This document shows positions 20,953 through 39,314 of a stretch of DNA of 64,000 nucleotides, in pieces. This DNA is from an uncultured Pelagibacteraceae bacterium (GTDB taxonomy: Bacteria > Pseudomonadota > Alphaproteobacteria > Pelagibacterales > Pelagibacteraceae), in assembly GCA_902590465.1 (NCBI GenBank), contig CACIWX010000003.1:1-64000 (forward strand), in the 5' to 3' direction. Made by a program: the position numbers and the translations under genes. How positions within the stretch are numbered: the first letter of the stretch is position 1; each line of letters begins with the position of its first letter. The notes beneath the pieces are model-generated. The model saw only the letters and a list, made by a program, of their open reading frames with translations. It had not been told where the DNA came from and did not search any database.

Positions 20953-21360
20953 ATGAGTTCAATCGAGGAGAAATGTAAAAATAAAGGTGTAAGACTGACT
21001 GACCAAAGAAAAGTTATTGCAAAGATTATGTCAGAGTCCAAAGATCACCCGGATGTAGATGAATTGCACAAAAGAGTAAGTTACGTGGATAAAAAGATTA
21101 GTATAGCGACTGTATATCGTACTGTGAAACTTTTTGAGGAAGCTGGTATTTTAGAGAAGCATGATTTTAAAGGCGGAAAAGCAAGATATGAACAGTCACC
21201 AGATGAACACCATGACCATTTAATTGATATAAATAGCGGTGAAATAATTGAATTTGTAGATAAAGACATTGAGAAACTTCAAAATGAAGTTGCAAAAAAA
21301 TTAGGATATAAATTAGTTGATCATAAATTAGAACTTTATGGTTCAAAAATAAAAAAATAA
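20953..21360 (+). CDS. Fur-family transcriptional regulator
   Basis: GVRLTDQRKVIAKIMSES...VSYVDKKISIATVYRTVKLFEEAGIL...HHDHLIDINSGEIIEF. Confidence 0.93.
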   Translation: MSSIEEKCKNKGVRLTDQRKVIAKIMSESKDHPDVDELHKRVSYVDKKISIATVYRTVKLFEEAGILEKHDFKGGKARYEQSPDEHHDHLIDINSGEIIEFVDKDIEKLQNEVAKKLGYKLVDHKLELYGSKIKK

Positions 21361-34179: not shown

Positions 34180-35391
34180 TTATACCTTTTCAAAAATTAG
34201 TGTAGCATTTGTACCACCAAACCCAAAACTATTAGACATGACTGTATTTAGTGAGGCTCCTTTTTCAGTTTTAGTTACTATGGGAAATTTTTTTGCTTCA
34301 TCATCCATTTCATTAATATTTGCTGAACCAGTAATAAAATTATTTTTCATCATAATTAAACAATAAATAGCTTCATGCACTGATGCTGCACCTAAGGGGT
34401 GTCCTGATAATGATTTAGTTGAGCTAATTTTAGGTATGTTTTCTCCAAAGGTGTTTTTTACTGCGTTAAGCTCTGTTATATCTCCTACAGGAGTAGAAGT
34501 TCCATGGGTATTTATATAATCAATTTTATTTTTTGAAGTTGCCAATGCCATTTTCATACATCTAACAGCTCCTTCGCCTGAGGGTGCTACCATGTCATAA
34601 CCATCAGAAGTTGCTCCGTAACCCGTAAGTTCAGCATATATTTTTGCACCTCTTGCTTTAGCGTGCTCATATTCCTCGAGAACTAGGACACCAGCACCAC
34701 CAGCTATAACAAATCCATCCCTAGTTTTATCGTAAGCTCTTGATGCAGTCTCTGGCTTATCATTATACTTTGAAGATAAAGCCGTCATAGCGTCAAACAT
34801 TGCAGTCATTGCCCAATGAATTTCTTCGCTACCACCGGCAAAAACGATATTTTGTTTACCCATTTGAATTAGCTCCATTGAATTTCCAATACAGTGTCCA
34901 CTTGTTGCGCATGCAGAGCTCATTGTGTAATTAGTTCCTTTAATTTTAAAAGGGACAGCAAGTGTTGCTGAAGCTGTACTGCCCATTGTTCTTGGTACAA
35001 TAAAAGGTCCCATAAGTTTTGGTGTTTTAGCCCTAGTTTTGTCAGCTGCAAGAATTACATTTTCAATTGAGGGTCCACCAGATCCCATGATAATACCAGT
35101 TTTAAAGTTACTTACTTCTTTATCTTCTAATCCGGAGTCTTTAATAGCTTCTTTCATTGCAATATAATTGTATGCAGACCCAGAACCCATAAATCTTATT
35201 GTTTTTCTATCTACGAAATCTGAAAGTTTTATATTTGGTTTTCCATGAACATGACTTTTTAGATTATGCTCTTTATATTCTCCAGCAAAAGAAATTCCTG
35301 ATTTTGAATTAAGTAGAGATTGATGAACTTCCTCTTGGTTATTACCAAGACATGATACAATTCCTAAACCTGTTATTACAACTCTTCTCAT
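34180..35391 (-). CDS. fabB: Beta-ketoacyl-ACP synthase I
   Basis: [44 protein letters not shown]; adjacent to fabA. Confidence 0.96.
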
Positions 35392-35891
35392 TATTTGAAT
35401 AATCCTACTTTTAAATTTTCAGCTTTATAAATAATTTTGCCGTCTGCACCTAACACTCCGTTAGCTAATCCAACAGTTGTTCCCTCTTTTTTAAGAATTC
35501 TTTTCATATTTATTTCATAAGTAGCCATTTTAGCATTTTTAAGAACTTCTCCAGTAAATTTTACAGAATTCACTCCTAAAGCTCTGCCCTTTCCAGGTTC
35601 ACCAGTCCAACCTAAAAAAAAACCAACTAATTGCCACATTGCATCCAACCCTAGGCAACCAGGCATAACGGGATCACCTTGAAAGTGACAATCAAAAAAC
35701 CATAAATTATCCTTAATATCAAGCTCTGCTTTAATAATTCCTTTTTTAAATTCGCCACTTTTATTATCTATTTTAGTAATTCTATCAAACATTAACATAG
35801 GGGGTAGAGGGAGTTTAGCGTTTCCTTCTCCAAACAAATCGCCTTTACCACACGCAATTAATTCCTCATATGTAAAACTGTTTTTTTGCAT
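35391..35891 (-). CDS. fabA: 3-hydroxydecanoyl-ACP dehydratase/isomerase
   Basis: [32 protein letters not shown]. Confidence 0.97.
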
Positions 35892-35941
35892 AATTAAAAA
35901 TAACTTTTACTTGATTTATGAATTTAATTATATATATATAG

Positions 35942-35958
35942 TTTAGAACGATTATAAA
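35942..35958. promoter_or_regulatory. Irr box (ICE)-like palindrome in the fabA/irr intergenic region
   Basis: TTTAGAAcgaTTATAAA; one mismatch to TTTAGAAnnnTTCTAAA. Confidence 0.65.
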
Positions 35959-35981
35959 TTATATATTAAAAATTTGATATA

Positions 35982-36410
35982 ATGGATAAAAAGAAAGATT
36001 TTGCAGATATATTAAGAAGCTCAGGATTAAGACCAACAAAACAAAGATTAAAGTTGGCGGAATTTTTATTTAACAGAGATAAAACTTTCCATTTTTCCGT
36101 AGAAAACTTAAACAAGTCAATTAATAAAAAAAATTCAGAAGATAAAATAGCACTAGCTACTATTTATAATACTGTTCATGCATTTAAAAAAGCTGGCCAT
36201 TTAAAAGAAATCTTAATAAAAGATGGTAAAAATTATTTTGATACTAACACATCTTCTCATCACCATTTTTACGACGAAGCAAACAATGAGCTAATAGATA
36301 TTGAAAACAATAAAATAGAATTAAAAAAATTTCCGATCCCACCTAGAGGAAAATCTATTAAAGATGTTAATGTAATCATTAGCGTTGATAATGATAATCA
36401 AAATCACTAG
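35982..36410 (+). CDS. irr: Fur-family iron response regulator Irr-like
   Basis: LRSSGLRPTKQRLKLAEFLF...ALATIYNTVHAFKKAGHLKEI...SHHHFYDEANNELIDI; divergent from fabA as in other alphaproteobacteria. Confidence 0.88.
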   Translation: MDKKKDFADILRSSGLRPTKQRLKLAEFLFNRDKTFHFSVENLNKSINKKNSEDKIALATIYNTVHAFKKAGHLKEILIKDGKNYFDTNTSSHHHFYDEANNELIDIENNKIELKKFPIPPRGKSIKDVNVIISVDNDNQNH

Positions 36411-36427
36411 TTTATAATCATTCTAAA
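36411..36427. promoter_or_regulatory. Irr box (ICE)-like palindrome between irr and rubrerythrin
   Basis: TTTATAAtcaTTCTAAA; one mismatch to TTTAGAAnnnTTCTAAA. Confidence 0.65.
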
Positions 36428-36431
36428 GTAC

Positions 36432-36461
36432 TTGACATGCAGTTTAGAATCATTATATCAT
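36432..36461 (+). promoter_or_regulatory. Sigma70-type promoter of rubrerythrin with Irr-like half-site in the spacer
   Basis: TTGACA (36432-36437), about 16-18 nt spacer containing TTTAGAA (36443-36449), then tatcat/tatatc. The listed ORF start at 36432 is inside the -35 element. Confidence 0.7.
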
Positions 36462-36482
36462 ATTAAAAACAAAGGAGATAAC

Positions 36483-36899
36483 ATGGCACTTAAAGGTTCA
36501 AAAACAGAAGAAAATTTAAAAGCTGCTTTCGCTGGTGAAAGCCAAGCTAACCGAAGATATCTTTACTTCGCCCAAAAAGCTGACGTAGAAGGTTACAACG
36601 ATGTTGCATCAGTTTTTAGGTCAACAGCAGAAGGTGAAACTGGTCATGCTCATGGTCACTTAGAATATTTAGAGGAAGTAGGTGATCCAGCAACTGGTAA
36701 ACCAATCGGTGAAACAAAAGCAAATTTAGCTTCAGCTGTTGCGGGAGAAACGCATGAATATACAGATATGTATCCCGGTATGGCAAAGACAGCTAGAGAT
36801 GAAGGTTTTGATGAAATAGCAGACTGGTTTGAAACGCTTGCTAAAGCAGAAAAATCACATGCTGGAAAATTTCAAAAAACTTTAGAGTCAATTAAGTAA
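36483..36899 (+). CDS. Rubrerythrin
   Basis: TEENLKAAFAGESQANRRYLYFAQKADVEGYNDVASVFRSTAEGETGHAHGHLEYL; SD aggag upstream of ATG 36483. Confidence 0.95.
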   Translation: MALKGSKTEENLKAAFAGESQANRRYLYFAQKADVEGYNDVASVFRSTAEGETGHAHGHLEYLEEVGDPATGKPIGETKANLASAVAGETHEYTDMYPGMAKTARDEGFDEIADWFETLAKAEKSHAGKFQKTLESIK

Positions 36900-36952: not shown

Positions 36953-38281
36953 ATGTCTAAAGAAGGAAGCACAGAAGCACCAATAAGACACCCTGTAGAT
37001 TTCAATCATCCAGATTTTTTAGATCCAAAAAAACTCGATGATGAAATGAGACGTGTGTTTGATATCTGTCATGGATGTCGAAGATGTTTTAATCTTTGTG
37101 ACTCATTTCCTAAGCTATTTGATATGATTGATGAGTCAAAAGACGAAGATGTTGAAAGTCTTAAAAGTGAACAATTTAAACCAGTTGTAGACGCTTGTAC
37201 GCTTTGTGACATGTGTTTTATGACAAAATGTCCTTATGTACCGCCACATGATTTCAATTTAGATTTTCCACATTTGATGCTTAGGTATAGAACAGCGCAA
37301 AGAAAAAATAAAGAACTACCTAGAATGCCATATCAACTCGCTCAATTAGATAGAAATGGTAAAATTGGAGTTTTTTTATCCAGCATCATTAATTGGGTAA
37401 CGAATATTAAAAACAGTTTTTTTAGAAAAATCATAGAAGCACTAACTCAAATCGATAGGAGAGTTAGGTTGCCAAAATATAATTCTGAAACATTTACAAA
37501 TTTTTTTAAAAACAATGCTAAAAAAATTGATCTTGAAAGATCAATTGATAGAAAAGTAGTTATTTATTCAACTTGTTTTGTAAATTTTAATAAAAAAAAT
37601 ACTGGTGTAGCGGCTCTTAAAGTCCTTAAAAAAAATGGTGTTGAAGTTGAACATGCATACCCAGGATGTTGTGGGATGCCATTTTTAGAGCAAGCTGATC
37701 TACCTAAAGTTGTTAAGCAAGCAAAAGAAGTTTCAAGTGAACTTTTAAAATGGATAGATAAAGGTTATGAGGTAGTTACACTTACGGCAAGCTGCGGATT
37801 AATGTTAAAGTTTGAGTGGCCTTTATTATTACCAGATAATGAGAACATAAAAAAACTGTCTAAACATGTTTTTGATATTGATGAGTATATCGTAGATATT
37901 GCAAATAAAGAGGGACTAGCTCCAGGTCTTACAGAAATAGATGGAGGTGTAACAGTACACAATGCATGCCACGCAAGAGCTCAAAATATGGGTATCAAAG
38001 CAAGAGATATGTTGAAGAATATTCCAAATGTAAAAATAGATGTAGTAGAAAGATGCGCAGGACACGGCGGCACCTTCGGCGTTATGAAAGAAACGCATGA
38101 TCTTGCAATTAAAGTTGGAAGACCAACTGCTAGACAAATTGATAATAAAAAAAATAAATATATGGCGTCCGATTGTCCTTTAGCAGGCAAACACTTAAAT
38201 CAACTCTCAAAAGATACCGAGATCAAACACGATGAGGCATTACATCCTATCGAAATAATGGCAAAGGCATATAAATTATAA
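36953..38281 (+). CDS. (Fe-S)-binding oxidoreductase, GlpC/HdrD-like with CCG domains
   Basis: CHGCRRCFNLCDSFP and CTLCDMCFMTKCPYVPP clusters; AYPGCCGMPFLEQ and VVERCAGHGGTFG Cys motifs. Confidence 0.9.
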   Translation: MSKEGSTEAPIRHPVDFNHPDFLDPKKLDDEMRRVFDICHGCRRCFNLCDSFPKLFDMIDESKDEDVESLKSEQFKPVVDACTLCDMCFMTKCPYVPPHDFNLDFPHLMLRYRTAQRKNKELPRMPYQLAQLDRNGKIGVFLSSIINWVTNIKNSFFRKIIEALTQIDRRVRLPKYNSETFTNFFKNNAKKIDLERSIDRKVVIYSTCFVNFNKKNTGVAALKVLKKNGVEVEHAYPGCCGMPFLEQADLPKVVKQAKEVSSELLKWIDKGYEVVTLTASCGLMLKFEWPLLLPDNENIKKLSKHVFDIDEYIVDIANKEGLAPGLTEIDGGVTVHNACHARAQNMGIKARDMLKNIPNVKIDVVERCAGHGGTFGVMKETHDLAIKVGRPTARQIDNKKNKYMASDCPLAGKHLNQLSKDTEIKHDEALHPIEIMAKAYKL

Positions 38282-38283
38282 TC

Positions 38284-38877
38284 ATGAATAAACAAGCTAG
38301 AGAAGTTACAAAATCAGATCTTATACCAGCAGATGAATATGCAAAAAACAGAAAAGCTTATAGAAAAGAAATAGTTTCTTATAAAAAAGACAGAAGAGTT
38401 TCATTAGGACCTTACGCAAATTTTTACTTTGAGTCTTATGAAACAATGAAAGCACAAATTCAAGAAATGCTTCATATCGAAAAGGGTGGAGACGAACAAT
38501 TGAAAGATGAACTGGCCGCCTACAATCCTTTAATACCAAAAGGTAAAGAACTAGTAGCTACATTGATGTTCGAAATAGATAATCCTCTGAGCAGAGCAGA
38601 GTTTTTAAATAAAGTTGGGGGAATTGAAGAGAAGATATTTTTAAAGATTGGTAATGAAAAAATTAAATCTATACCAGAACAAGATGTCGACCGAACTTCT
38701 GCTGAAGGAAAAGCTTCTTCAGTTCAATTTGTACACTTTGAATTTAATGATAGCCAGATAGAGAAATTTAAAGATCCATCAAGCGATGTGATCATTGGAA
38801 TTGATCATATTATGTACGCTCATACCTCAAAGCTTACTGATGCAAATAAAAAAGCATTAGCTTTAGACTTTGATTAA
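38284..38877 (+). CDS. DUF3501 family protein
   Basis: Position after rubrerythrin and Fe-S oxidoreductase; sequence ...LIPADEYAKNRKAYRKEIVSYKKDRRVSLGPYANFYFESYETM resembles DUF3501. Confidence 0.75.
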   Translation: MNKQAREVTKSDLIPADEYAKNRKAYRKEIVSYKKDRRVSLGPYANFYFESYETMKAQIQEMLHIEKGGDEQLKDELAAYNPLIPKGKELVATLMFEIDNPLSRAEFLNKVGGIEEKIFLKIGNEKIKSIPEQDVDRTSAEGKASSVQFVHFEFNDSQIEKFKDPSSDVIIGIDHIMYAHTSKLTDANKKALALDFD

Positions 38878-39314
38878 AGCAATCCCCAAAGACTTTTTTT
38901 TTGCAACCATCCTTTATATTCTCCAGATTTAATTTTGCACCATTCATTCTTACATTTATTTATTCTCACTAACCTTCCCTTTTTGAGTATTGCTATTGGA
39001 TTTGAATAAATTGTGGAATTGCTAAATAAAACCAAATCATCGTCTATGGTAATCGCTGCTTTTTTTTTTGAGAGTTGAGAGATATGTATCCATCCAGAAT
39101 TATTTTCATGATCTCTAATTTTCCTAAAATTATCTGATTTATCCTGAATGAGTACAGGTAAAAACTTTTTTTTATAAAAAATTTTCACAGGATAATCAAA
39201 AGAAGGTCCTTGCCGTAAGTTTACTTTGTCATTTCTTAGCGTAAGAAAATATTCGTCCATAGAATGCAAATTTCCATACGGTAATAAAAGAAATAAAAAT
39301 ACAATTAAGCGCAT
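38874..39314 (-). CDS. SH3-domain protein (secreted)
   Basis: Signal peptide; DKVNLRQGPSFDYPVKIFYKKKFLPVLIQDKSDNFRKIRDHENNSGWIHISQLS. Confidence 0.82.
   Translation of the reverse strand: MRLIVFLFLLLPYGNLHSMDEYFLTLRNDKVNLRQGPSFDYPVKIFYKKKFLPVLIQDKSDNFRKIRDHENNSGWIHISQLSKKKAAITIDDDLVLFSNSTIYSNPIAILKKGRLVRINKCKNEWCKIKSGEYKGWLQKKSLWGLL

Follow-up and report, generated by a model that had tools for sequence, protein, structure and literature searches.

Three palindromes around the irr gene of a SAR11 bacterium are probably operators for the irr product, which would sit on the -10 elements of irr itself and of the adjacent peroxidase module and so repress both. Sequence comparison provides the sites, their overlap with promoters, their conservation, their co-loss with irr and the exchange of the downstream cassette. 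What stays constant in the slot downstream of irr is the removal of peroxide, either by rubrerythrin (rbr) or by katG.

Gene order and predicted operators of the irr locus

The window covers 64 kb of a partial Pelagibacteraceae (SAR11) genome (706 kb, 66% complete). SAR11 are ocean bacteria of very high abundance and dominate among the heterotrophs of the surface ocean. The gene order is fabA, irr, rbr, RFO and DUF3501, with fabA on the reverse strand and the other genes on the forward strand. The fabA gene (35391..35891; TIGR01749 with 260.6 bits, above cut-off) is divergent from irr, an arrangement present at nearly all SAR11 irr loci. A Fur-family regulator of 142 residues with an HHH motif is encoded by irr (35982..36410; NF045678 IrrA, PF01475 with 73 bits). 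The product of rbr (36483..36899; PF02915) is an aerobic-type rubrerythrin of 138 residues that has no rubredoxin domain and is close to the rubrerythrins of PDB entries 9onm and 4di0. The next genes encode RFO, a GlpC-like CCG protein (36953..38281; PF02754, PRK11168 below cut-off; PMC5114695), and a DUF3501 protein (38284..38877; PF12007 with 204.8 bits). On the reverse strand, a gene for an SH3-like protein (38874..39314) borders the exchangeable slot on its right; this flank is conserved and is found beyond both rbr-type and katG-type slots.

As the rubrerythrin lacks a rubredoxin domain and its gene neighbours those for RFO and DUF3501, these genes constitute an aerobic-type rubrerythrin cluster. 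It resembles the rubrerythrin-RFO-DUF3501 cluster of Cardenas et al. 2016 (PMC5114695), which comprises the same three genes and likewise has no rubredoxin domain. Irr is absent from the main text of that paper, whereas the cluster in the window is tied to irr and its predicted operators and is exchangeable with katG.

The original prediction placed three Irr-box-like palindromes at this locus, and direct reading of the forward strand confirms their positions. Predicted operator site 1 (TTTAGAAcgaTTATAAA / TTTAGAACGATTATAAA, 35942..35958) has one mismatch to TTTAGAANNNTTCTAAA and lies in the fabA/irr gap, as proposed. This assignment can be refined, as the site covers the likely irr -10 (TATAAA, 35953..35958). 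The predicted operator at site 2 (TTTATAAtcaTTCTAAA / TTTATAATCATTCTAAA, 36411..36427) has one mismatch to the same pattern; its first base is the one after the irr stop, and the site ends just upstream of the rbr -35. Site 3 (TTTAGAAtcaTTATATC / TTTAGAATCATTATATC, 36443..36459), likewise a predicted operator, has three mismatches to it and fills the spacer and the -10 of the rbr promoter, between TTGACA and rbr. Its position in the promoter spacer downstream of TTGACA had been predicted correctly. The -35 hexamer TTGACA (36432..36437) is read directly in the sequence and its TTGAC is conserved in relatives; the likely -10, TATATC, follows after 16 bp (36454..36459). By their mismatches, promoter overlap and conservation, the sites correspond to the Irr box or ICE palindrome (TTTAGAA-N3-TTCTAAA near a target promoter).

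Rarity, conservation and geometry of the sites

Many equal matches across the genome had been named in advance as a finding that would speak against the sites. Pattern scans allowing mismatches across the 706-kb partial genome gave only four places with at most one mismatch to TTTAGAANNNTTCTAAA, namely sites 1 and 2 and two positions inside long ORFs; sites 1 and 2 are thus not refuted. The exact TTTAGAANNNTTATAAA, with the right arm TTATAAA of the SAR11 form, occurs in this partial genome only at sites 1 and 2. In dinucleotide shuffles, the observed best score was matched in 3 of 5000 cases for the fabA-irr gap and in 1 of 5000 for the irr-rbr gap, and the pair of sites 2 and 3 arose in none of 5000 shuffles of the latter. 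Scan and shuffles together reject chance AT-rich palindromes as an explanation of sites 1 and 2. Site 3 is unremarkable by sequence alone, since matches with up to three mismatches number in the hundreds genome-wide; its support is conservation and promoter position.

For comparison, 109 irr loci were taken from SAR11 genomes; removal of duplicates and addition of the window gave 107 non-redundant loci. A site was considered conserved with at most two mismatches. Such a site is present between fabA and irr at 95 of the 107 loci (1.1% in shuffles of the same gaps) and downstream of irr at 106 (1.4% in shuffles), in raw locus counts that ignore kinship and span several genera. The SAR11 operator consensus is TTTAGAAYNATTATAAA. 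Its "N3" spacer is constrained at positions 8 and 10 (Y-N-A), and the core is therefore TTAGAAT-N-ATTMTAA. In 89 cases TTGAC precedes site position 12 with a spacer of 15–17 bp. The right arm carries A instead of C because the site overlaps the -10.

In the window, the distance from site 2 to site 3 is 32 bp. A distance of 31–32 bp is also the commonest in relatives, among which a second spacing class of 23 bp occurs. The position of site 3 is conserved before rbr or katG. At four loci (L255, L258, L259 and L261) site 3 is degenerate and site 2 is retained, which counts against the proposed operator function. At most SAR11 loci, L037 and L075 among them, the irr ATG comes 5–6 nt after the site and its -10 in the fabA/irr gap. 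The irr mRNA is therefore probably leaderless in most SAR11; the leader in the window would be longer. In one SAR11 clade (L031-L036, L108-L126), a palindrome-like string, TTGACAGTTTGTCGC, is conserved between irr and the katG operator, about 20–40 nt upstream of the latter. It is possibly the site of another regulator or an mRNA end signal.

In an AT-rich genome, the sites might be conserved merely as promoter elements (-10), or they might be a product of chance. TATAAA alone would indeed be kept as a -10 in such a genome, and site 3 taken alone has three mismatches. This explanation is highly improbable: besides the genome scan and the shuffles, the conservation data already largely contradict it. 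Site 2 lies outside the core promoter, and the left arm TTTAGAA is nearly invariant, more than any -10 requires. Furthermore, perfect or near-perfect boxes are also present in genomes of 54–66% GC.

Among the 30 best class-wide IrrA loci, rbr (usually with RFO) is downstream in nearly all. An Irr box is often present in their irr-rbr gap, with no mismatch at L195, L197 and L211 and one mismatch at several others. These boxes are unlikely to arise by chance, because the box is AT-rich and the genomes are GC-rich. Among remoter loci, a pair of perfect boxes with a distance of 32 bp precedes rbr at L221, and L217 and L230 contain irr-katG pairs with boxes; at a number of remote irr loci neither rbr nor katG is present. 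The occurrence of irr-rbr and irr-katG pairs with boxes across Alphaproteobacteria indicates that the link between irr and a peroxidase is old and not an oddity of SAR11.

A large Irr regulon in SAR11 found no support when further exact matches of the motif in other SAR11 genomes were examined. Some of these are again irr or katG promoters; others lie inside genes or in a context shared with an irr-less genome. Four loci (L264-L267, in G070, G124, G052 and G118) carry the exact TTTAGAANNNTTATAAA between genes, in surroundings that are conserved but have no relation to irr; the same surroundings also occur in a genome that yielded no Irr. In SAR11, Irr appears to act as a local switch and not at the top of a large regulon.

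The regulator and the loss of irr

The window Irr scores 144.1 bits against NF045678 (IrrA; cut-off 150) and 128.7 bits against NF045677 (cut-off 170). Both values are under the curated cut-offs, yet Irr is by far the best family, and therefore only an Irr-type protein is claimed. PerR models reach at most 62 bits compared with 144 for IrrA, so that PerR is not the closest family. The HHH motif (H91-H92-H93) is present together with H37, D85 and D104, as in 30 class-wide Irr proteins. The N-terminal haem regulatory motif with Cys-Pro is absent, and the window Irr has no cysteine at all. This motif is known from Bradyrhizobium and is absent in several other Irr proteins. The Irr of R. sphaeroides also lacks it and still binds haem (PMC3413700).

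Alignment with 2fe3 and Fur chains showed that all five PerR ligands (H37, D85, H91, H93 and D104) are present, whereas the window Fur has Glu at both acidic ligand positions. This second Fur-family gene, of the Fur type, is located at 20953-21339, about 15 kb from irr; in many SAR11 genomes a Fur-like gene is found at a roughly similar distance. D104 was dropped as proof of peroxide sensing by SAR11 Irr, as 30 of 30 class-wide Irr proteins have it. PerR-like sensing would be chemically possible for Irr proteins generally, and the ligands are not specific evidence for it here.

Irr/ICE systems of Rhizobiales and Rhodobacterales likewise combine an Irr-family protein with boxes of the TTTAGAA-N3-TTCTAAA type that overlap promoters. 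In R. sphaeroides, peroxide-defence genes are among the targets, for example ccpA and the rubrerythrin-like mbfA (PMC3413700), and peroxide defence is also the predicted target in SAR11. The SAR11 sites differ in the right-arm A at the -10 overlap. Compared with these orders, Irr in SAR11 seems to have a regulon that goes no further than irr and the adjacent gene or operon, which is katG or the aerobic-type rbr operon.

Bacillus PerR shares with SAR11 Irr the five metal ligands and, on the predicted side of SAR11, control of peroxide scavengers and autoregulation. The Bacillus Per box is TTATAATNATTATAA, and its 7-1-7 operator core is near-identical to TTAGAAT-N-ATTMTAA. The sequence of SAR11 Irr is, however, clearly closer to Irr models, and unlike PerR it has no Cys4 zinc site, as it contains no cysteine.

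Six SAR11 genomes lack irr at its usual place, with fabA and katG directly adjacent (L235-L240, in G001, G049, G077, G073, G006 and G062, respectively). These fabA-katG gaps represent a natural irr-loss series. A site with fewer than four mismatches before katG was not found in five of the six. G006 has lost irr but kept an intact site before katG, which counts against Irr as the binding protein. The site before katG is also absent in irr-less lineages of the SAR11 family. Fur is retained in most irr-less genomes, and the loss of the site despite its persistence speaks against Fur as the binder.

Binding of the sites by another Fur-family protein, either Fur or a third paralogue, is thus improbable. 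The genome has three Fur-family genes and operators are alike across the superfamily, but in addition to the decay of the site upon irr loss, the sites specifically flank irr and match the form of the Irr box. Most likely, Irr itself is the binding protein.

The exchangeable slot and the direction of regulation

Of 116 SAR11 irr loci, 78 have katG and 37 have rbr as the gene next to irr; at the remaining one the contig ends there. All 37 rbr-type slots contain rbr-RFO-DUF3501. In SAR11 genomes without rbr at this position, katG (identified with the family model) is located behind the same operator-promoter. Across 118 genomes, katG is present in 76 and rbr in 17, and both together in none. The flanks of both slot types are alike, with fabA-irr on the left and SH3-like, moeB and dut genes on the right. 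In katG-type slots a further conserved-looking gene is found between katG and the right flank (at L031, an ORF beginning MSEQIYSDFYKV).

The katG label must have changed at least six times to fit the well-supported branches of the Irr tree, and the exchange was therefore repeated. The exact number of changes is uncertain, as the tree draws on few alignment columns and irr may have been transferred together with the adjacent gene. The neighbour gene thus appears to have been exchanged repeatedly, with the switch of regulator and operator retained. Irr boxes and Irr autoregulation are already known, and part of the irr-rbr link may have been predicted already in Rodionov et al. 2006, reportedly the main published Irr regulon prediction. 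As far as the literature consulted shows, a conserved, exchangeable and mutually exclusive katG/rbr slot under one predicted Irr operator is undescribed.

The predicted operators lie on the irr -10 and, at the rbr or katG promoter, on both spacer and -10. From this position we infer binding, repression by occlusion and a releasing signal. Irr on site 1 would cover the irr -10 and limit its own transcription. On site 3 it would mask the next promoter from spacer to -10 and repress the H2O2-scavenging module, which is rbr-RFO-DUF3501 in the window and katG in other SAR11. Site 2, about three helical turns away, may help Irr at site 3. Inactivation of Irr by haem, iron status or peroxide would derepress the module. 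Control of fabA is no more than a possibility. A predicted Irr box at iscR of R. sphaeroides showed no Irr binding in vitro (PMC6956336), which counts against operator function inferred from a box.

Irr-box operators, irr autoregulation and control of rbr-RFO-DUF3501 thus stand as predictions. The iron/haem signal that was part of the original proposal is more doubtful, as rbr of P. ubique changes opposite to the classical direction in the single published experiment on iron limitation. Genome G026, presumably that of P. ubique HTCC1062, has TTGACTTACAGTTTAGAATGATTATATG before rbr. Irr is reported as a repressor under iron depletion in the species studied (PMC3413700). In iron-limited P. ubique, rbr is up 1.57-fold and suf about 2-fold; irr and fur transcripts cluster with stationary-phase genes, and the Irr protein shows no significant change (PMC2864753). 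Low-iron repression, as known from Rhizobiales and Rhodobacterales, is unsupported by these data. The rise of rbr is small and may be indirect; it misfits the classical Irr direction, and its sign is better explained by a metal-dependent, PerR-like repressor.

Accordingly, the same sites and the same Irr might work with a metal-loaded repressor that is released by H2O2 or iron loss, the metal direction being opposite to that of classical Irr. This variant deserves tentative consideration. The targets are peroxide scavengers only, the five PerR ligands are in place and the core resembles the Bacillus Per box; the P. ubique locus with the raised rbr presumably has the same operator. The ligands are not diagnostic, however, being common to all class-wide Irr proteins compared, the change in expression could be indirect and the HHH haem-type motif is retained. 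Repression of irr and its neighbour by Irr remains the preferred reading.

P. ubique is cited as having no catalase (PMC3033426), and katG is reported to be common to most offshore SAR11 genera (PMC12636525). One predicted Irr-operated slot, holding katG or the rubrerythrin operon and never both, joins these facts. It names a concrete, testable candidate regulator of SAR11 peroxide defence. It also suggests that Irr, mostly presented as an iron/haem regulator, has long been connected with the removal of H2O2. Somewhat speculatively, its old job in SAR11, and probably in wider Alphaproteobacteria, might be that of a PerR-like, metal-dependent local repressor of a peroxidase module. This module would have a single slot, filled by the haem enzyme KatG or by rubrerythrin, which has no haem, and would be exchanged as a cassette while regulator and operator stay. 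The exchange of output genes under a fixed operator would show with particular clarity how modular regulation can be in streamlined genomes.
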